A stretch of 48,122 nucleotides of DNA from Acidobacteriota bacterium (GTDB lineage Bacteria > Acidobacteriota > Thermoanaerobaculia > Multivoradales > J023): the NCBI GenBank assembly GCA_029263395.1, contig JAJCXO010000135.1, positions 1-48,122 of the forward strand, given 5' to 3'. Position 1 is the first letter of the stretch. Each line of letters begins with the position of its first letter. The notes below the pieces were generated by a model. That model did no database searches. It had not been told where the DNA came from and saw only the letters and a program-made list of their open reading frames with translations. The position numbers and the translations under genes are program-made. This document shows, in pieces, positions 23,168-31,551 of the stretch.

Positions 23168-23842
23168 CTAGTCGCGCTCGATGACAACCAGGTGCAGCTC
23201 GCCGGGACCGTGGACGCCGACAGTGAGTTTTTGTTCGATGTCGCCGGTCTTGCTCGGGCCGGTAATGAACGTGAGCGCACTCGGCAGCCCACCACGAGCT
23301 TGGACCTGTTCGAATAACGCGGCCAGCTCATGAACCACGTCCCGGGCCTCGAGCACGGCGATGTGGAGCGGTGGCAACAGGGAGACCGCTCGACCCTGGC
23401 CTGGGGCAGCTATCAAGGCGAGGGTGCCGGTTTCGGCAACCGCGAAGTCGACCGAGGTGAGGCCGGCGTCGACTTCGAAGGCTATCGTTCGCAGCTCCTC
23501 AGGGGTTGTTTTATCGGTTAGCCTGGCGACGGTCAGATCGATATGGATGCGACCTAGCTCTTCGTCGATGGCAAGCGTCCTCAATGCGGGGGTGTCGCCT
23601 CGCAGAAGGCGGTGAACTTGGCGATTGCGCAGGATCTCGAGAACCCGTTGGCGGGCCTCCCCGGTTGTGGCCACCCGAGTGGTGAAGCCCCCAGCGGCCT
23701 CGAGTTCGGTGCACAACATCCGCACTCGGTCGGCGAGTTCGGGTGGCGGTGGCGGAACGTAGGGTGTTGGCCGCGGCGGGAGCGGCTCCGGGGCCTCGTC
23801 GAGGCTAGCGCGCACTCTGGCCAGAAAGCTCTCACGATCCAT
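23168..23842 (-). CDS. lutC: Lactate utilization protein C (LUD domain)
   Basis: 224 residues, normal length for LutC. The LUD domain shows VDFAVAETGTLALIAAPGQG and ITGPSKTGDIEQKLTVGVHG, both characteristic blocks. LutC is one of three subunits of the LutABC iron-sulfur L-lactate dehydrogenase, which oxidises lactate to pyruvate. It is the last gene of the operon, starting 16 bp after lutB. The 78-bp gap to the convergent 20750 gene has no obvious terminator. Confidence 0.92.
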   Translation of the reverse strand: MDRESFLARVRASLDEAPEPLPPRPTPYVPPPPPELADRVRMLCTELEAAGGFTTRVATTGEARQRVLEILRNRQVHRLLRGDTPALRTLAIDEELGRIHIDLTVARLTDKTTPEELRTIAFEVDAGLTSVDFAVAETGTLALIAAPGQGRAVSLLPPLHIAVLEARDVVHELAALFEQVQARGGLPSALTFITGPSKTGDIEQKLTVGVHGPGELHLVVIERD

Positions 23843-23858
23843 AGTTATCGAGTCCTGG

Positions 23859-25298
23859 TCATCGGGCTCGACCTGCCCAACGCTGACGGAACGTTTGCCT
23901 CGCCGGTGCCGGAACGTCTCGCAGCTCAGTCCAGCCGGTGATTATTGGCGGCCGCCACCAGCTACCTCGCCGACGGAACAGCCACGACGCGAAGTAGAGC
24001 ATCGTGCCAGCCCAGCGGTAGCGTATGGGGGAGGTCATCGTTTTGGTGAAGAGTTTGATTGCCAGACGTTCTGCGTGTCGTTGCTGTGGAGGTGGCGATT
24101 GGCTGGTTTTCGAACCTGTGTCCGATTCGGTAACAATCTTGCGACGCTGGGCGAGGAGCATCCGGGGTAGATTGATGCGTACCGGACAGACATCACGACA
24201 GGCGCCACACAAGGATGAGGCGAAGGGCAGGGCAGAGGCTTGCTCGCGACCGACGAAGCTCGGAGTGATCACCGCGCCGATCGGGCCGGAGTAGACCCAA
24301 CCATAGCTATGCCCACCGGCATGCCGGTAAACCGGGCAAATGTTGAGGCAGGCACCACAGCGGATGCAGCGCAAAGACTCTCGCAGCTCGGGATCGGCGA
24401 GTAGGCGAGAGCGGCCGTTGTCTTGGATCACGAGATGGAAGGCTTCGGGGCCGTCTTCTTCGTCCTGGCGCTTGGGACCGGTTATACAAGAAACGTAGCT
24501 CGACATCTTCTGACCGGTGGCACTGCGGGCTAGGATCTTCAAGAAAACTGACAGAGATGACAGATCTGGAATGACTTTTTCCATCCCCATAACCGCCACG
24601 TGGACGCGGGGCAGGGAAGTCGAGAGTCGAGCATTTCCCTCGTTTTCCACCACCGCGATAGTGCCAGTTTCGGCAACCGCGAAGTTGACGCCTGAGATGC
24701 CGAGATCAGCGCCGCGGAAGGCGTCTCGCAAGATCTTGCGAGCTTCCTGGGTCAGCTCTTCGCGAGTCTCCAAGCGCCGTGAACCAAGTTTTTCCATGAA
24801 TAGCTCGGTGACTTCCTCACGGGTCTTGTGGAGGGCGGGGGCAATAATGTGAAAAGGAGCCTCGTCGGCGAGTTGGATGATGTATTCCCCGAGATCAGTT
24901 TCGACGGTCTCGACACCCGCGCCCTCGAGCGCTTGGTTGAGACTGATCTCCTCAGTTGTCATCGATTTGCTTTTGACCACCCGCGTTGCCTGATAACGCT
25001 TCGTCAAAGCGACGATGATCTGGCGCGCCTCGGCTGCATCTGCGGCCCAGTGCACTTCGCCGCCAACGCGTTCCACCGAGTCGGCGAGACGTGCCAGTTG
25101 CTGATCGAGCTCAGCGAGGGTGCTCGCCTTGATGTCACGTCCCAGGTCGCGCAGCGCTTCGCCTTCGGGAAAGGTAGCGAACGCGGCTTGCCGTGCTAGA
25201 TTGAAGCGCGGCCCGGCTACCTCCAAAGCTTGTTGGAGTTGCGGATCGGCGATCGCCTGGCGAACCTTGTCAGCGAATTGATGGCTGGTGACGTCCAT
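23859..25298 (-). CDS. lutB: Lactate utilization iron-sulfur protein B
   Basis: 479 residues. The N-terminal LUD domain (~1-290) includes LGISGVNFAVAETGTIAVVE and ETDLGEYIIQLADEAPFHII. Two ferredoxin motifs follow, CIRCGACLNICPVYRHAGG (~313) and CGACRDVCPVRINLP (~363), each binding a [4Fe-4S] cluster. The C-terminal domain ends with Trp/Arg-rich residues, as in other LutB proteins. It starts 4 bp after the lutA stop, so translation is probably coupled. It passes electrons from lactate within the LutABC complex. Confidence 0.95.
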   Translation of the reverse strand: MDVTSHQFADKVRQAIADPQLQQALEVAGPRFNLARQAAFATFPEGEALRDLGRDIKASTLAELDQQLARLADSVERVGGEVHWAADAAEARQIIVALTKRYQATRVVKSKSMTTEEISLNQALEGAGVETVETDLGEYIIQLADEAPFHIIAPALHKTREEVTELFMEKLGSRRLETREELTQEARKILRDAFRGADLGISGVNFAVAETGTIAVVENEGNARLSTSLPRVHVAVMGMEKVIPDLSSLSVFLKILARSATGQKMSSYVSCITGPKRQDEEDGPEAFHLVIQDNGRSRLLADPELRESLRCIRCGACLNICPVYRHAGGHSYGWVYSGPIGAVITPSFVGREQASALPFASSLCGACRDVCPVRINLPRMLLAQRRKIVTESDTGSKTSQSPPPQQRHAERLAIKLFTKTMTSPIRYRWAGTMLYFASWLFRRRGSWWRPPIITGWTELRDVPAPARQTFRQRWAGRAR

Positions 25299-25302
25299 CG
25301 TC

Positions 25303-26034
25303 TCAGCCGTCTTCGAAGCCGCCGTAGGCCAGGAGCTCTGCTACGTGCATCACCTTGAGAGGACTCCGGCGACGGTTGAGGGCGCCGCCAAGATGCATCA
25401 GGCAACCGCAGTCCGTTGCAGTCAGAACAGTGGCGCCGGACGCTTCGAAAGCCTTCAGCTTGGCATCCAACATGGCCCCCGACAACTCAGGCATCTTGGC
25501 GGAAAAGGCGCCTCCGAAGCCACAGCAGACCTCGGCGTCGGGCAACTCGACGAGCTCGACTCCAGGTACTTGGGCGAGTAGTGCCTCTGGGGAGCCACCG
25601 CCACCGAGCTCCCGTAGTAGGTGGCATGACGGATGGTAGGTGACGCGGGCTTGGAACGATGTGGTGTCGGGCTCGAAACCCTCCTGAGCTAAAAGCTCGG
25701 TCAGCTCCAGCGTCTTGCGCGCGAGGTTCTGGGCTCGGGGCAGCCAGGTGGTGTCGTGTTCGAACAACTCCGGCAGCTGCACTCGCACCATGCTGGCGCA
25801 AGAGCCCGAAGGAGTTACCACTTCGTCGTAGGGCTCGAAGATTTCGATCATCCGTCGACCCAGTTGACGGGCTTCGTCGCCATAACCCATGTTGAAGGCG
25901 GGTTGGCCACAGCAGGTCTGAGCTTCAGGGAATTCCACCTGACGGCCACACCGCTCGAGCAGTTGAACGGTGGCTTCGCCAACTTGCGGGAACAGCTGGT
26001 CGATCAGACAGGTGACGAAGAGCGCGGTTCTCAT
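25303..26034 (-). CDS. lutA: Lactate utilization protein A, CCG-domain Fe-S protein
   Basis: 243 residues from ATG 26034 (a GTG directly before it is possible). MRTALFVTCLIDQLFPQVG is the usual LutA/GlcF-like start. Two cysteine-rich CCG domains are present: QTCCGQPAFNMGYG (~residue 40) and EVCCGFGGAFSAKMPE (~167), which together ligate a Fe-S centre. Length matches Bacillus LutA. It is the first lut gene but the third gene of the operon, only 8 bp after the receiver-phosphatase gene. Confidence 0.94.
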   Translation of the reverse strand: MRTALFVTCLIDQLFPQVGEATVQLLERCGRQVEFPEAQTCCGQPAFNMGYGDEARQLGRRMIEIFEPYDEVVTPSGSCASMVRVQLPELFEHDTTWLPRAQNLARKTLELTELLAQEGFEPDTTSFQARVTYHPSCHLLRELGGGGSPEALLAQVPGVELVELPDAEVCCGFGGAFSAKMPELSGAMLDAKLKAFEASGATVLTATDCGCLMHLGGALNRRRSPLKVMHVAELLAYGGFEDG

Positions 26035-26042
26035 CACGAAGG

Positions 26043-27176
26043 CTAGGACAGATGGCGGGCTGTCAACAGCGTGACGTCGTCGTCGGCTGGCCGACCGCCG
26101 GCGAATGCTGCTACCTGATCGAGAATGCGGTTCAGCAGCTCGCTGCCGCCGACCGTCGCGTCGCGCACAATGGCGTGTAACCGTTCGACCTCGAACATCT
26201 CATCGTCATCGCGCGAAGCTTCGGGGATACCGTCGGTGTAGAGCAAGAGGGTCGAGTCTTGGCTCCACGGAACTGATTCGCTTTGCCATCCGAGGTGACG
26301 GAGGACGGGGGAGACCAGGGGGCCAGTCGAAGTCAGAGGCCGTGGTTCAGCCCCCGGGCGAGTCACCAGCCCCCCTTCGTGACCAGCATTGACGTACTCG
26401 AGTTCTCCGTCTTCAATCGATATCCTGACGCACAACAAGGTGACGAAGCGCCCGGGCTCAAAGGCGGCGACGTTTTCTGCCACTCGGTCGACGACTGCTA
26501 GGGGGTCGAAGTCAGGGTAGGACGCTCGAAATGCCGATTTGACGAGACTGGTGAGCATCGCCGCGGTGGCACCGTGCCCCACGACGTCGGCGATCAACAG
26601 CGCAACCCGCCCTGAACCGGCGGCGGCATAGTCGTAAAGATCCCCGGCGAGTTCTGTACAGGGCTGATATGCGGCTTGGATCTCGAGCCCATCGATTTGT
26701 GCGTGCCGCGCTGGCAGCATGGTTTCTTGGAAGGCGCGGGCCTCCGCCAGTTGGTGTTCCAAGTGTGCCAGATGGCGCCGATTGGCGTCCTCCAACAATT
26801 TGAGTTCGAGACAGCGATCGACCAGGGTACGCAGCACGGCGCGTTCGAAGGGCTTTTGAATGTAGAAGAAGGCTTTCTCGCGAATCGCCCGGATCAGCTT
26901 TTGATCGGAGTCGAAGCCGCTACCGGTCATGAGGATTACTCGGAGGTCGGCATCCTGACGTTTGAGAGCGTTCATCAGCTCGAAACCGTCCATCTCCGCC
27001 ATGCGAATGTCGACAATCGCCAGAGCTGGGTGTAGCTCGCGGCAGCGGCGTAGAGCTTCGGTCGGAGAGGTGAAACCAGAGACCTCGTAGTCACGTTCGA
27101 GCACCCGAGTGACGGTGCGCAGCATCGCCGGCTCGTCGTCAACGACAAAAATTCTAGGTCGGTCGGTGCGGGTCAC
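26043..27176 (-). CDS. Receiver domain fused to PP2C (RsbU/SpoIIE-type) phosphatase
   Basis: 377 residues, GTG start overlapping the kinase stop (GTGA). The receiver domain (~1-125) has the acidic pair DDE at 13-15, phospho-acceptor Asp56 in AIVDIRMAEMDG and the conserved Lys in QKPF. A short coiled linker leads to a PP2C/SpoIIE domain (~165-375) with AGDLYDY, ADVVGHG, NAGHEGGL, TDGIPEA and DDVTLL, the metal-binding set. Such proteins dephosphorylate anti-anti-sigma factors (RsbV/SpoIIAA type) when the receiver is phosphorylated. No STAS or anti-sigma gene is in the window. It is placed between its probable kinase and lutABC. Confidence 0.9.
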   Translation of the reverse strand: MTRTDRPRIFVVDDEPAMLRTVTRVLERDYEVSGFTSPTEALRRCRELHPALAIVDIRMAEMDGFELMNALKRQDADLRVILMTGSGFDSDQKLIRAIREKAFFYIQKPFERAVLRTLVDRCLELKLLEDANRRHLAHLEHQLAEARAFQETMLPARHAQIDGLEIQAAYQPCTELAGDLYDYAAAGSGRVALLIADVVGHGATAAMLTSLVKSAFRASYPDFDPLAVVDRVAENVAAFEPGRFVTLLCVRISIEDGELEYVNAGHEGGLVTRPGAEPRPLTSTGPLVSPVLRHLGWQSESVPWSQDSTLLLYTDGIPEASRDDDEMFEVERLHAIVRDATVGGSELLNRILDQVAAFAGGRPADDDVTLLTARHLS

Positions 27177-28840
27177 CGGCCGACCTCCGGCGCACTATCG
27201 AGAATCGGTAGATCGAGCTGCAACCGAGTTCCTTCGCCGACGGTCGAGTTGATGTCCATTTCGCCGCCAATGTCCCACAGAATCGAGCGACAAATCGACA
27301 ACCCGAGTCCATTGCCGTCCGTCTTAGTGGTGAAGAACGGTTCCGAGACCCGTTCCATCATCGGTTTTGGGATACCGCAGCCGTCGTCTTCGACGGTGAC
27401 CCGAATCGTGTCGCTGCCGTTCTCAGCCGAGACCTTCAGCTCACCGCCGTCCGGCATCGCGTCGCGCGCATTGGTCAATAGGTTGAGAAACAGTTGCGTG
27501 AGGTCGCCTTGACTACCGCGAATCGTCGGTAGCTCTTTGGGTAACTCGAGCGTGACATCGATCGATCGCCGTTTCATACTATCGCCGAGCACCGACAGGG
27601 CACCGTCGATGGCCCGCCGTGGATTGCCATGACCAACACCTTTGCCAGAGCCGCGAGCAATCGCCAGCATGCCGCCGAAGACCCGTCGACAAGTTTGAAG
27701 CGACGTTTCCAAGGATTGCAGGTCCTCGGCCAAGGTTGCGGCTTCGATCTCACCATCGCGAGCGTCAGCGCGCATCTGTTGCACGAGGGGCAACATCGCG
27801 CCGAGCGCATTGTTGACGTCATGGGTGATGCCACGGGTGAGATTAGCCAGCGCATGTTTGCGTTCGGACAACAGCACCTGTTCCTGGAGTGACTCGGTGC
27901 GGACAGAGAACTGTACTGCCAGGGATGCCAGAGGGAGAAATTCCTCCACCAACTTGGCTTCGTAGCCGCCGAGCACGCCGCTACGTCGAGCGGAAATCTT
28001 GAGCAGGCCGAGGGCTCCGGCGGGTGTTGCGATCGGGGCACATAACATCGACACTTCTGACGGTACCTTGCCGGTCTCGTCGCTCAGCAACGCTGGCAGG
28101 CTGGTGTCGGAGCGATCTCTGGGGGCGTGCCAGCCCTCGCTGGTGCGCTCGTAGAGACGCACTGCACTTTTGCTCAACTGGCGCCGGGTGGCCTCGTCGA
28201 GGGGCAAGCGTAGGCCGATCTGGAGGCTTCTGGCCTTGGTCCAAGCAATCTGCTCTGCTACTAGCTCGAGCGTGTCAGATTCGTCTTTGGCGATGAGCAG
28301 AGACGCGGAATGATCGTAGCGAGTCAACGATCGCAAGCCGTGCAGGATGTCGTAGATCAGATCTTTCGGATCCTGATGGTTGGCGATCTTCTGTTCAATC
28401 TTGCGCCGCACCTTGCGTGATCGTTTCTCGTCGAGTTCGCGGATAATCTCGGTCAACGTTTGGGTGATGGCGAACAGCGCTTGGCGCTGCTCTGGGCTGA
28501 ACGGGAGGTTCTCATGGCGCAAGGCGATTACCGCCCAAGACCGTCCCCGCCGTTTGACCGGTGCCAGCAGTATTCCTTCGGGGATCTCTGGGCGGGCACC
28601 GAGAATGTATTGAGTCAGCAGGGCTTTGTCCCAGGTTGTACTCCGGGGGTAGACGTACACCACCACCGCGTCCGAGCGGCCGGGTTTTAAGGTAGCGACG
28701 GCCCCTTCGGGTGCACTGAATAGATCCCGAGTGACCCGCAAACCGTAGATAAGAGCCTTACGCACGTCGTGAACGTGACGGAGACGAGAGCGCAAGTCCG
28801 CTTGCAGACGCAGCATCTTGAGTTGGAAAGGTTCGTTCAT
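27173..28840 (-). CDS. GAF-domain sensor histidine kinase
   Basis: 555 residues from ATG 28840. A GTG at 28885 would add 15 residues but lies upstream of the -10-like TACAAT, so I reject it. No membrane segment is seen, so it is cytoplasmic. One or two GAF-like domains fill ~40-315. The H-box is LTRGITHDVNNALGAMLPLV with His340. The ATPase region has NLLTNARDAMPDGG (N box), DDGCGIPK (G1), PFFTTKTDGNGLGLSI (F/G2). It probably phosphorylates the receiver-PP2C protein encoded by the next, overlapping gene, and it heads a five-gene operon ending in lutC. Confidence 0.9.
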   Translation of the reverse strand: MNEPFQLKMLRLQADLRSRLRHVHDVRKALIYGLRVTRDLFSAPEGAVATLKPGRSDAVVVYVYPRSTTWDKALLTQYILGARPEIPEGILLAPVKRRGRSWAVIALRHENLPFSPEQRQALFAITQTLTEIIRELDEKRSRKVRRKIEQKIANHQDPKDLIYDILHGLRSLTRYDHSASLLIAKDESDTLELVAEQIAWTKARSLQIGLRLPLDEATRRQLSKSAVRLYERTSEGWHAPRDRSDTSLPALLSDETGKVPSEVSMLCAPIATPAGALGLLKISARRSGVLGGYEAKLVEEFLPLASLAVQFSVRTESLQEQVLLSERKHALANLTRGITHDVNNALGAMLPLVQQMRADARDGEIEAATLAEDLQSLETSLQTCRRVFGGMLAIARGSGKGVGHGNPRRAIDGALSVLGDSMKRRSIDVTLELPKELPTIRGSQGDLTQLFLNLLTNARDAMPDGGELKVSAENGSDTIRVTVEDDGCGIPKPMMERVSEPFFTTKTDGNGLGLSICRSILWDIGGEMDINSTVGEGTRLQLDLPILDSAPEVGR

Positions 28841-28857
28841 GAGATACGGTGCGTCAG

Positions 28858-28863
28858 ATTGTA
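28858..28863 (-). promoter_or_regulatory. -10-like TACAAT upstream of the kinase-lut operon
   Basis: On the minus strand GCTACAATC occurs 17 bases before ATG 28840. The surrounding GCTACAATC matches the extended element found upstream of 5091 and 28935. No convincing -35 box or Shine-Dalgarno site accompanies it. It supports ATG 28840 over GTG 28885 as the start. Confidence 0.4.
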
Positions 28864-28920
28864 GCAGTGACACGATGGGTGGCACCGCCCATGGAGAACC
28901 TTTAGCCGGTTCATGTTGGG

Positions 28921-28937: not shown

Positions 28938-29021
28938 GCGACCCCGGGATTCGACACCTTCACCTTTGCGGCGGGCCAGATCCGTCACCGAGTGGCCCTG
29001 CGCGAGATTGGCGACGTTTGA
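28935..29021 (+). CDS. 28-codon leader ORF coupled to radical SAM gene
   Basis: Opens at the ATG placed 6 bases after TACAAT and ends with a TGA that shares its A with the ATG of the radical SAM gene (TGATG). The product begins MATPGFDTFTF and ends REIGDV; it has no Cys and no membrane segment. The position suggests it drives coupled translation of the enzyme, which lacks its own Shine-Dalgarno site. The sequence is faintly like the N-terminus of dienelactone-hydrolase-type proteins, so a pseudogene fragment is another reading. Whether the peptide itself matters is unknown. Confidence 0.4.
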   Translation: MATPGFDTFTFAAGQIRHRVALREIGDV

Positions 29022-30415
29022 TGTGGCATCTCGGTCAGCTTTTTAGCCTGCTTCGCGAGCCGGTCTCGGCGGAGAAGCGCACCTTGTTGCAGGCGCGTTG
29101 GCAAGAGCTGCCAGCTGATCTGCGGGTTGGTTGGCAAGTCGTGGGCCAGCACCATGTTCATTGTGGCTACACCCTGGGTCCGTCCTTCTGCTCTTTTGGT
29201 TGTTCACACTGTTATTTGCCGGGCAATGCCAACCGCGTGCCGCTGCCTTCACTGGCCGATATGAAGGCCCAGATCGACGCCAATCGACGTGCGATCGGTG
29301 CTGGCGGAGGGCTACAGATCACAGGTGGAGATGTCATTGATGCGTATTGGCGCGAAAGCCGGCAAGATGAGCTCGTCGCCATTTTGAGGTATGCCAATCA
29401 GGCCGGGGTCGTGCCGATGCTGATGACCCACGGCCAAAAATTGTTGGACCATCCCAGCTACCTGGTGCAGTTGGTGACGGAGGGAGGACTGCGCAAGCTG
29501 GCGATCCATATCGACATGACAATGGCCGGGCGACCGGGTTATCCTATTAAAGCGTTGCGGTCCGAAGCTGACCTCCATCCGTTGCGAGAACGGTTTGTCG
29601 AGTTGATTCTCGATGTTCGTCGCCAGACCGGGGTGCGGTTCTCTGCCGCCCACACGGTGACGGTGACCGAGCGCAACATCTCGAGTGTCGATGAGATCCT
29701 GAGGTGGTTAGTCTCTGATCCGAGGCACCTCGAGGCTTTTCGTATGATCAGTCTCCAGCCCGAGGCTGAGGTCGGTCGGACGCGATACTCTGAGCGACCG
29801 GTGACGCCCGAGCAGACCTGGAGCAAAGTTTGCTCCGGCATCGGTCTGAATCTACCGCGGGATAGCTTCCTCGTCGGTCATCCCGAGTGCAGCCACCTCA
29901 GCTCGCTGTTGGTGCTGTATCCGTCAACGTCGAGCCGAGAGCAGAGCCCGGTGGCAGGACAAGTGATCAATCTTTTTGACGACAGCAGTGAAAGCCGGAG
30001 CTTTCTGAGCTCGATCCTGGCGACCTTCGGTGGTATCGGAGCACGCGGCGAGCGCCACACCGAAGCCAATCTTCGCCGGCTTGGGCTCGTGCTGAGGCAT
30101 CCCGCCAGCCTATGGCGGATAGCAAAATATGCTGTCTTTGTCGCCCGCCGCGACGGTGTGGGGCTCGCTCAACTCGCTCGGGTGTTGGCCGGCCGGGCGG
30201 ACTTTCGGGTACTCAGTGTTGTCCAGCACAATTTCATGAGTGCAGCCGAGATTGCCGAGCCCCGTAGTGAACAGGTTGAGCAACGCCTGGCGGGCTGCTC
30301 ATTCCGAGGAGCGGTGCGGCGCGGCGATGATTGGGTCGATGTACCGATGTGCGCGATGAACGCCGTTGAACGTGAGGACTTATACAACGTTCAGATCGGC
30401 GCAACGCAGAACTGA
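29021..30415 (+). CDS. Radical SAM protein, Tes/membrane-spanning-lipid-synthase-like
   Basis: 464 residues from ATG 29021. The radical SAM cluster motif is FCSFGCSHC (Cys57, 61, 64; Cx3Cx2C), with LQITGGDV as the following GGE-like motif. Further cysteines occur in GHPECSHL, LAGCSF and VPMCAMN. The C-terminal segment (QHNFMSAAEI ... RLAGCSFRGAV ... DVPMCAMN) resembles archaeal tetraether synthase (Tes) and bacterial membrane-spanning lipid synthases that join two fatty acyl tails, as needed for the iso-diabolic acids known from Acidobacteria. This assignment rests on motif resemblance only; another radical SAM function is possible. The start follows the leader ORF by TGATG overlap; the 3' end overlaps argE by 25 bp. 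Confidence 0.6.
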   Translation: MWHLGQLFSLLREPVSAEKRTLLQARWQELPADLRVGWQVVGQHHVHCGYTLGPSFCSFGCSHCYLPGNANRVPLPSLADMKAQIDANRRAIGAGGGLQITGGDVIDAYWRESRQDELVAILRYANQAGVVPMLMTHGQKLLDHPSYLVQLVTEGGLRKLAIHIDMTMAGRPGYPIKALRSEADLHPLRERFVELILDVRRQTGVRFSAAHTVTVTERNISSVDEILRWLVSDPRHLEAFRMISLQPEAEVGRTRYSERPVTPEQTWSKVCSGIGLNLPRDSFLVGHPECSHLSSLLVLYPSTSSREQSPVAGQVINLFDDSSESRSFLSSILATFGGIGARGERHTEANLRRLGLVLRHPASLWRIAKYAVFVARRDGVGLAQLARVLAGRADFRVLSVVQHNFMSAAEIAEPRSEQVEQRLAGCSFRGAVRRGDDWVDVPMCAMNAVEREDLYNVQIGATQN

Positions 30416-31551
30416 TCGACGAAGCCGGTCAGCAGCTCTGAAGCCTTTGCTAGCTCGTCTTTCGGGATCGACTCGTTGGGCTTGTGCGCAACTTCGATCG
30501 TGCCAGGCCCCCACAGCAGGCAGTCGAAACCAGCGGTTTGGAACCAACCGGCGTCGGTTGCGTAAGACGCACTGACGGTACTGTCCTGCCCCATATGTTG
30601 GCAGAGGGTCGTGTAGAGGTCGTTGCCGTCGTCGAGCAGCATCGGTGGGCTTTCCTCGACATCACCGAGCTCAAATGTATAGCCGTCTACGGCATCGATG
30701 ACCGTTTGCCGCAAGCGCTCGGCGATGGGTTCGGCAGTCATTCCCGGCAAGACTCGTATACCGATGTCGATTACGCACTGATCTGGGACGATATTGACAG
30801 CAGCGCCACCAGCTACTTGCGCGATATTCAAGGCGACAAACGGGACTTCCGGAAAATATTGGCCGTGAGGCGGCGCTTCGCGTTCTAGAGCGCGACGCAA
30901 CTCGGCGATACCAACCATCGCTTTGGCAGCCGGCTCGATGGCGTTGCGGCCGAGATGCGGGTAGCCGCTGTGGGCACCGATACCACGGAAAACCAAGCGG
31001 ACTGTGGCGTGTCCTTTGTGCATGCGAATAACGTCGAGGGACGTTGGCTCGCCGATGATCGCACGTCGCGGCAGCGCTTGTTCTGCGGGCCAGGTCGACA
31101 CGAAGTGGCGAGCACCAAGGGTCCCGAGCTCTTCATCGTAGGTCAACACCAGGGCCAGAGGGTTGCGCAGTTTCGAGGTTTGGACACGGGCTGCCTGGTT
31201 GATAGCCAGCGCAACGAAGCCCTTCATATCGCAAGCACCGCGGCCGACGTAAGCAGTCTCGGACTCGAAGAGTTCGAAGGGGTCAGTCTGCCATCCTGGC
31301 TCCAGCGCCGGCACCACGTCCATGTGTCCCGAGAGCATCAGACCTGCGCGGGCATCAGCCTGGGCTTCCGGGCCGACAGTGATCACGAGATTTGTTTTGT
31401 CGCCGTCCGGGGAGGGATTGCGCTCGATGCGGATACCGGGGCGATCGAGATAGTCGCAAATGAACTCAGCGATGGGCAGGTTGGAGTTGTGGCTGGTGGT
31501 GTCGAAAGACACCAGCCGTGCCAGCAAATCGGCATCAGATAGGATCGTCAT
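30391..31551 (-). CDS. argE: Acetylornithine deacetylase (M20 family)
   Basis: 386 residues. The M20 metal-site motifs are complete: SGHMDVVP (His76, Asp78), GRGACDMKGF (Asp108), TYDEELGTLG (Glu140/141) and GEPTSL. Length and motif wording match ArgE, which hydrolyses N-acetylornithine to ornithine in arginine biosynthesis. A succinyl-diaminopimelate desuccinylase (DapE) is the main alternative; the SGHMDVVP and RGACDMKG wording favours ArgE. It is not clustered with other arg genes. Its start codon is 7 bases after a TACCCT box. Confidence 0.88.
   Translation of the reverse strand: MTILSDADLLARLVSFDTTSHNSNLPIAEFICDYLDRPGIRIERNPSPDGDKTNLVITVGPEAQADARAGLMLSGHMDVVPALEPGWQTDPFELFESETAYVGRGACDMKGFVALAINQAARVQTSKLRNPLALVLTYDEELGTLGARHFVSTWPAEQALPRRAIIGEPTSLDVIRMHKGHATVRLVFRGIGAHSGYPHLGRNAIEPAAKAMVGIAELRRALEREAPPHGQYFPEVPFVALNIAQVAGGAAVNIVPDQCVIDIGIRVLPGMTAEPIAERLRQTVIDAVDGYTFELGDVEESPPMLLDDGNDLYTTLCQHMGQDSTVSASYATDAGWFQTAGFDCLLWGPGTIEVAHKPNESIPKDELAKASELLTGFVDQFCVAPI

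Follow-up and report, generated by a model that had tools for sequence, protein, structure and literature searches.

Radical SAM gene and its surroundings

The window (the whole stretch of DNA analysed, 48,122 nucleotides of contig JAJCXO010000135.1 from an Acidobacteriota bacterium) encodes on its forward strand a protein that has a radical SAM core and a C-terminal auxiliary-cluster domain in common with the archaeal tetraether synthase Tes (MJ0619, GDGT-MAS, 7tol, NF045702). The features of the gene are listed below, with residues numbered throughout according to a 500-aa reading of the same frame, which is also open from an earlier ATG at 28913.

29021..30415, forward strand: radical SAM gene, 464 aa, stop codon at 30413-30415
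29162..29164, forward strand: Cys84, nine residues upstream of C93, typical of the family
29189..29212, forward strand: radical SAM motif C93-x3-C97-x2-C100
29879..29890, forward strand: H323-P-E-C326, with C326 in the column of a cysteine presumed to bind the C-terminal auxiliary cluster in Tes
29987..30187, forward strand: cap region (residues 359-425), predicted to be helical and lying between auxiliary-cluster cysteines one and two, at the position of the Tes lipid-pocket cap
30227..30238, forward strand: H439-N-F-M442, with position 439 aligned to the labile Met ligand of Tes
30296..30298, forward strand: Cys462, presumed auxiliary-cluster ligand, within 'GC'
30344..30361, forward strand: P478-M-C480-x-x-N483 ('VPMCAMN'), with C480 as the third presumed auxiliary-cluster ligand

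The start at 29021 is favoured because of a same-genus relative (80% identical), the single further member of the genus among the genomes searched: there the corresponding ATG is preceded at four codons by a TGA, and the interval contains no ATG, GTG or TTG. A 520-aa open frame listed for this relative conflicts with its DNA. The upstream start at 28913 is disfavoured by this TGA and by the AlphaFold model, in which confidence is below 50 at residues 1-28 of the 500-aa reading. Every motif that the initial annotation had listed for the 464-aa radical SAM reading frame (Cx3Cx2C, HPEC, GC, NFM and VPMCAMN) is present; C84 is a cysteine absent from that list. Invariance of C93, C97, C100, C326, C462 and C480 in 18 aligned relatives, against a mean column identity of 43%, rules out a chance motif or a wrong frame. 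Across 91 family rows (the window protein included), C326 is kept in all 91 and C462 and C480 in 88, the remaining three rows being gapped.

The gene is solitary: a histidine kinase gene (27173-28885, reverse strand) diverges from it, and an M20 peptidase gene (30391-31551, reverse strand) overlaps it tail to tail. No lipid gene was found among four neighbouring proteins scanned with Pfam, and in the closest relatives the annotated genes nearby are of mixed types and not obviously lipid-related. Further along the reverse strand (23168-26037) lie lactate-utilisation-like genes with LUD and CCG domains, which we take to be of LutC, LutB and LutA type and which adjoin the response regulator and histidine kinase genes (26043-28885).

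Detection and distribution of the family

The window protein is difficult to detect with standard models. Pfam Radical_SAM (PF04055) gave 19.6 bits, under its cut-off of 29.5, a direct PDB search returned one weak match (7tol, E 0.09), and a search for related loci with this single protein as query found no match. Its sole NCBIfam match at E 1 was TrsS (NF045646), with a score of 18.2 bits against a cut-off of 490 that places it outside TrsS; two distant family members reached 106 and 122 bits over most of that model. It is nevertheless a member of the radical SAM superfamily, as two distant relatives exceed the PF04055 cut-off and its predicted model aligns to radical SAM structures.

Family matches were obtained in 22 of the 98 genomes searched (counting the window's own), and the named family loci are the best 80 of 210 matching contigs, mostly metagenome bins by record title. 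The 91 family rows carry the labels of 12 phyla, with three rows lacking a phylum label: Acidobacteriota, Pseudomonadota, Myxococcota, Gemmatimonadota, Planctomycetota, Verrucomicrobiota, Nitrospinota and Actinomycetota, together with Calditrichota, Bacteroidota, Latescibacterota and Omnitrophota, the last four with one row each. Within the Acidobacteriota, the family was found in 12 of 297 genomes (E 1e-40) and Tes-type genes in 171 (E 1e-30), with only three genomes (G079, G198 and G346) containing both. The NCBIfam and literature searches made here returned no name or description for the family, which is real and well conserved, shows a Tes-type fold and has a partner that recurs.

Fold-level kinship with Tes

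The initial annotation had proposed a Tes/MSS-like enzyme, to be checked by profile comparison and structure prediction, and both place Tes first. An 18-row family profile (A1) searched against the PDB gave Tes 7tol as best match (E 1.9e-24; next structure 9.3e-4), in an alignment running from the core through to the Tes 'FCTYN' opposite the family 'MC..N', and Tes was the only solved structure matched by the profile through the C-terminal domain. Profile-profile comparison with 12 Acidobacteriota Tes-type proteins also extended through the C-terminal domain (E 9.4e-22, 351 columns); a generic radical SAM protein encoded in the same genome reached 1.1e-8 over 174 core columns, although a single sequence does not offer a like-for-like control. 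With the AlphaFold model (pLDDT 87.4, pTM 0.87) the best alignment was to 7tol, with a Z score of 28.2 over 345 residues; viperin scored 18.1 and SuiB 15.1. This order comes from the second alignment, the only one that 7tol topped, as the Foldseek ranking was headed by other radical SAM proteins and lacked 7tol in its first 50.

The columns of C326, C462 and C480 are common to all 30 Tes-type rows of the tree alignment, and their putative ligand role is read from alignment with 7tol. R289, F441, R458, N483 and R487 are likewise found in 30/30 Tes-type rows and in 84 to 89 of the 91 family rows. The mean net charge of the cap is +7.3 in the family and +6.8 and +4.6 in two Tes-type groups, compared with core values of -1.5, -2.9 and -6.6, respectively, and the hydrophobic share of the cap is Tes-like; the helical hydrophobic moment of the cap helices in the window protein was no better than that of shuffled sequences, 216 of 500 of which reached it. 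Tes-type proteins and the family therefore have in common the three cysteine columns, R458, N483, F441 and a cationic cap. Taken together, the profile, the model and the cysteine columns support fold-level kinship with Tes that includes the C-terminal auxiliary-cluster site.

Separation from the Tes family

Kinship with Tes stops short of membership. The window protein was not listed by NF045702 (the Tes model, cut-off 450 bits) at E 1, nor was it among the 13 other places listed when the genome was scanned at E 0.1; the genome has no NF045702 match at E 1e-22, and its best, located elsewhere, is at generic radical SAM level (1.4e-19). Tes has a rubredoxin domain and an N-terminal auxiliary-cluster domain, whereas the window protein has neither. 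In alignment A2, C44, C47, C68 and H71 of the rubredoxin site and C109, C113, C116 and H119 of the N-terminal auxiliary cluster are invariant in 12/12 Tes-type rows; these N-terminal metal-site residues, described for Tes in the available text of PMC9433317, are absent from the window protein, where C84 is the sole Cys between M37 and the core motif.

Residue columns separate the two groups further. A Cys 7-10 residues upstream of the core motif is present in 90/90 readable family rows (L132, with a gap at the motif, is unreadable) compared with 1/29 readable Tes-type rows. Position 439 is His in 71, Gln in 17 and Lys in one of the 91 family rows (two gaps) and Met in 30/30 Tes-type rows, and the column of Tes Tyr459, which corresponds to G466 of the window protein, holds Tyr in none of the 91 family rows and in 30/30 Tes-type rows. 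Across the same 30 Tes-type rows, a Phe is replaced in the family by Tyr101, a Gln by His199 and the Phe before the third Cys mostly by Met479. In the parts of PMC9433317 available to us, Met439 and Tyr459 of Tes are fully conserved across 1000 archaeal homologues and the variants M439A, Y459F and Y459L are nonetheless robustly active; on that account, the residue differences seen here do not exclude Tes-like chemistry.

Phylogenetic analysis gave a well-supported separation. In a 124-row tree, the 30 Tes-type rows from Acidobacteriota, 21 of which exceed the NF045702 cut-off, were divided from the 94 others with SH-aLRT 100, and in a 58-row tree the 16 Tes-type rows were divided from the 42 others with bootstrap and SH-aLRT both 100, the Tes-type rows of both trees being Acidobacteriota only, with no archaeal Tes. 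In the 124-row tree, the window protein belongs to a clade whose 14 rows come from Acidobacteriota and Gammaproteobacteria (SH-aLRT 100). An alternative tree joining this clade with the Tes-type rows was 17.1 log units worse (p-AU 0.0516), so the branching order within the family is unsettled and the isolation of the Tes-type rows settled. Membership of the Tes family is ruled out by the NF045702 results, the absent N-terminal sites, the residue columns and this fully supported branch. The Tes half of the Tes/MSS-like assignment thus holds at the level of the fold and fails at the level of the family, and the expected placement in the Tes clade is contradicted by trees that put the window outside the Acidobacteriota Tes-type clade and that include no archaeal Tes. 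As judged from sequence, this is a separate bacterial family, set apart from the Acidobacteriota Tes-type proteins by the trees and compared with Mss by description only.

These Acidobacteriota Tes-type proteins have the same modules and come from the same phylum, yet the tree places them opposite the family, and their N-terminal ligands are retained in the 12 rows of A2. Tes-type homologues have been reported from Edaphobacter, Koribacter and Solibacter in the available text of PMC8941075. Two Tes-type genes that differ in kind (>450 and ~325 bits) were also observed on each of three Acidobacteriota contigs (G334:C7, G165:C24 and G208:C21), separated by about 0.8 to 6 kb and perhaps forming a two-enzyme lipid locus.

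Mss and diabolic acid

Mss is reportedly a proven bacterial membrane-spanning lipid synthase, from work by Sahonero-Canavesi in 2022. Thermotoga maritima is said to produce diabolic acid, a synthesis presumably attributed to Mss, and its genome is matched neither by the Tes model (E 1e-22) nor by that of TrsS (1e-24); this null result suggests that a dedicated Mss model is needed for annotating diabolic acid producers. In the available text of PMC11868695, other authors count Mss and 'Tes homologues' separately, and that of PMC13274423 reports a Tes architecture for Mss from AlphaFold superposition, with homology set at >30% identity and E 1e-30. Given the separate counting and the T. maritima result, the pairing 'Tes/MSS' joins two things. 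PF09989, which we take to be part of the ester reductase Ger, had no match in the window's genome (E 0.001) but matches four control genomes, T. maritima among them, and is therefore not specific to Ger; ester-linked iso-diabolic acid does not require Ger. Diacids can escape ordinary fatty acid profiling. The major fatty acids of two cultured family carriers include iso-C15:0, and the word 'diabolic' is absent from the main text of the same source as available (PMC8841776). On this evidence the window protein is not a diabolic acid synthase, and iso-diabolic acid coupling is a minority reading.

A recurrent DUF547 partner

A DUF547 gene lies within 6 kb of the enzyme gene in 53 of 88 family loci, and in 30 of the 52 loci flanked by 3 kb or more on each side. 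Fifty of the 53 neighbours are within 500 bp and 41 are on the same strand, one of the 53 (L079) being a weak match (E 2.2e-11). Ninety loci had been entered, of which L160 and L162 were dropped (masked stretches, nothing at the strict threshold) although both hold DUF547. The identity of DUF547 was established with Pfam on two linked copies. By comparison, DUF547 was near in none of 20 Tes-type control loci from the same phylum, two of which (L173 and L176) are shortened by contig ends. A DUF547 neighbour and the extra Cys before the core motif are thus features of the family that are absent and nearly absent, respectively, in the Tes-type group.

Within the window's clade, DUF547 is near in 6/14 loci, with three of the other eight lacking upstream sequence, and in the window's genus it is not adjacent to the enzyme gene. 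Two DUF547 genes occur in the window's genome, neither of them linked to the enzyme gene: the copy on contig 176 is 52% identical to the enzyme-linked copy in G013 and ~50-57% identical to four other linked copies, and the second is 29-33% identical to these linked copies. Among 98 genomes, 15 held both genes, 7 the enzyme only, 5 DUF547 only and 71 neither (Fisher p 9.5e-9, uncorrected for kinship), DUF547 being counted at 45% identity and 238 bits, a threshold chosen after a gap in the scores had been seen. In four of the seven enzyme-only genomes (G011, G032, G084 and G091) a more distant DUF547 adjoins the enzyme, and an in-frame stop interrupts DUF547 in G027. The two genes co-occur in relatives even when unlinked, as in the window's genome. 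On contig 234 of that genome (~36.3 kb, L167), a second, distant DUF547 follows a MerA-like FAD oxidoreductase in one open frame, a pairing also observed near some distant family members. Eleven regions around unlinked DUF547 genes had shared neighbours only between two same-genus genomes, plus two single pairs.

The linked DUF547 proteins have signal sequences by eye and a lipobox-like motif in 11/22 by pattern. H153, C158 and C163-P164 are invariant, with H153, C158 and C163 present in 22/22 rows. A DUF547 model (pLDDT 90.1) compared with solved structures gave no match with Foldseek at E 0.001 (best 0.9) and none with VIA-align at Z 8, an absence that does not establish a new fold. No paper combining 'DUF547' and 'radical SAM' was found in the literature searched, in which DUF547 papers were mostly plant work by title.

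Other neighbours are less frequent. Near the enzyme in the 88 loci were a TIGR04283-like glycosyltransferase (13), a MerA-like oxidoreductase (12), MauE (11; presumably the family of amine dehydrogenase maturation) and VTT (10), whereas the 14 loci in the window's clade had none of these four types nearby. PhyH (phytanoyl-CoA dioxygenase-type) lies within 6 kb in 3/88 loci (L065, L067 and L098), two of them in the window's clade, and one of the 20 Tes-type controls has a TIGR04283-like neighbour. An Omnitrophota locus (L114, 3859-13146) contains VTT, MerA-like, family, GH1, TIGR04282-like, ArsM-like, phosphate-permease-like, ArsS and TIGR04283-like genes, with ArsS exceeding its cut-off, and is an arsenosugar-type cluster with a Tes-fold enzyme. 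As a general partner ArsS was rejected, with ArsS-like genes in one and ArsM-like genes in three of the loci searched, and the window's genome has no ArsS over the cut-off.

Proposed chemistry and alternative explanations

Our best explanation is lipid-type radical chemistry on an auxiliary cluster with DUF547 acting outside, which as a whole we put at an even balance; it builds on the fold-level kinship, the conserved cysteines, the separate clade and the genomic tie to DUF547, from which we infer the chemistry. The enzyme would be a cytoplasmic radical SAM protein with the two catalytic modules of Tes and without its two N-terminal metal domains. The core cluster would cleave SAM, and the resulting deoxyadenosyl radical would abstract hydrogen at an unactivated carbon. 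The substrate held beneath the cap would be hydrophobic, most probably a membrane lipid. An auxiliary [4Fe-4S] cluster, presumed to be bound by C326, C462 and C480 and perhaps also by H439 or C84 as putative ligands, would trap the carbon radical via a sulfide, as in Tes, to give a C-C or C-S bond; a cluster-bound intermediate forms part of the Tes mechanism in the available text of PMC9433317. The exported DUF547 protein would then act on or bind the product outside the cytoplasm, the best candidate in the window's genome being that on contig 176. From its anatomy, Tes-like chemistry is most likely for this enzyme, and a cap charge similar to that of the Tes-type groups suggests a lipid or other hydrophobic substrate; a lipid-joining role is possible. 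A more specific version, which we consider rather doubtful, is a two-gene system across about a dozen phyla in which a stripped-down Tes-type enzyme and an exported DUF547 protein yield a C-C or C-S linked membrane lipid; with similar reserve, this may be a new lipid class in bacteria without known membrane-spanning lipids, with a DUF547 protein that has no clear structural match.

The tight pairing and co-occurrence of the two genes might instead reflect an enzyme that modifies DUF547 before export, for example at one of its invariant residues (Cys, Cys or His). The invariance of H153, C158 and C163 and the MauE genes near 11/88 loci are consistent with such a role, but Tes is the best structural match by far over the peptide-modifying SuiB, the charge and hydrophobic share of the cap are Tes-like, and similar DUF547 genes occur without the enzyme in 5/98 genomes; we regard this as unlikely. 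Still less probable is the proposal of the initial annotation that the enzyme makes iso-diabolic acid by tail-to-tail coupling of two iso-C15 chains, here as a stand-alone substitute for the missing Tes-type gene. The catalytic modules are those of Tes, replacement is conceivable in a genome with no NF045702 match at 1e-22, and kinship with Mss, known here by description only, could favour coupling; the two differing positions M439 and Y459 also tolerate substitution in Tes (PMC9433317, as available), and iso-C15:0 is major in the two cultured carriers (PMC8841776, as available). Against these points, a fully supported branch divides the window from the Tes-type proteins, the family occurs in 12 Acidobacteriota genomes compared with 171 of 297 for the Tes-type genes (three with both), and the linkage to DUF547 is unlike that of the 20 Tes-type loci. 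The family is also present in Gammaproteobacteria, Nitrospinota and others, for which we know of no diabolic acid production.

The arsenosugar-type cluster in Omnitrophota, where a distant member lies with ArsM-like, ArsS and TIGR04282- and TIGR04283-type genes, raises a further alternative, that the enzyme belongs to a pathway of arsenosugar or glycolipid type, in which it makes or links a hydrophobic moiety of some glycosylated product. The TIGR04283-like, MerA-like and VTT neighbours (13, 12 and 10 of 88 loci) fit such a pathway. The scarcity of ArsS-like and ArsM-like genes (one and three loci), the lack of ArsS over cut-off in the window's genome, the absence of MerA-, VTT-, MauE- and glycosyltransferase-type genes around all 14 loci in the window's clade and the TIGR04283-like neighbour in 1/20 Tes-type controls make it very improbable.

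Implications

What is new here is a family spread over 12 labelled phyla and tied to an exported DUF547 protein. The Tes reaction, the joining of two unactivated carbons, is among the hardest reactions known. If lipid-type radical chemistry is the correct explanation, Tes-type chemistry would extend past the archaeal and known bacterial membrane-spanning lipids, a widening that rests on a widely distributed bacterial family whose catalytic modules are those of Tes, whose redox equipment differs and whose exported partner recurs, and DUF547 would gain its first functional context. Genes of this kind are unsafe as markers for producers of diabolic acid or brGDGTs, and the family is best taken as a lead on new lipid-type radical chemistry.
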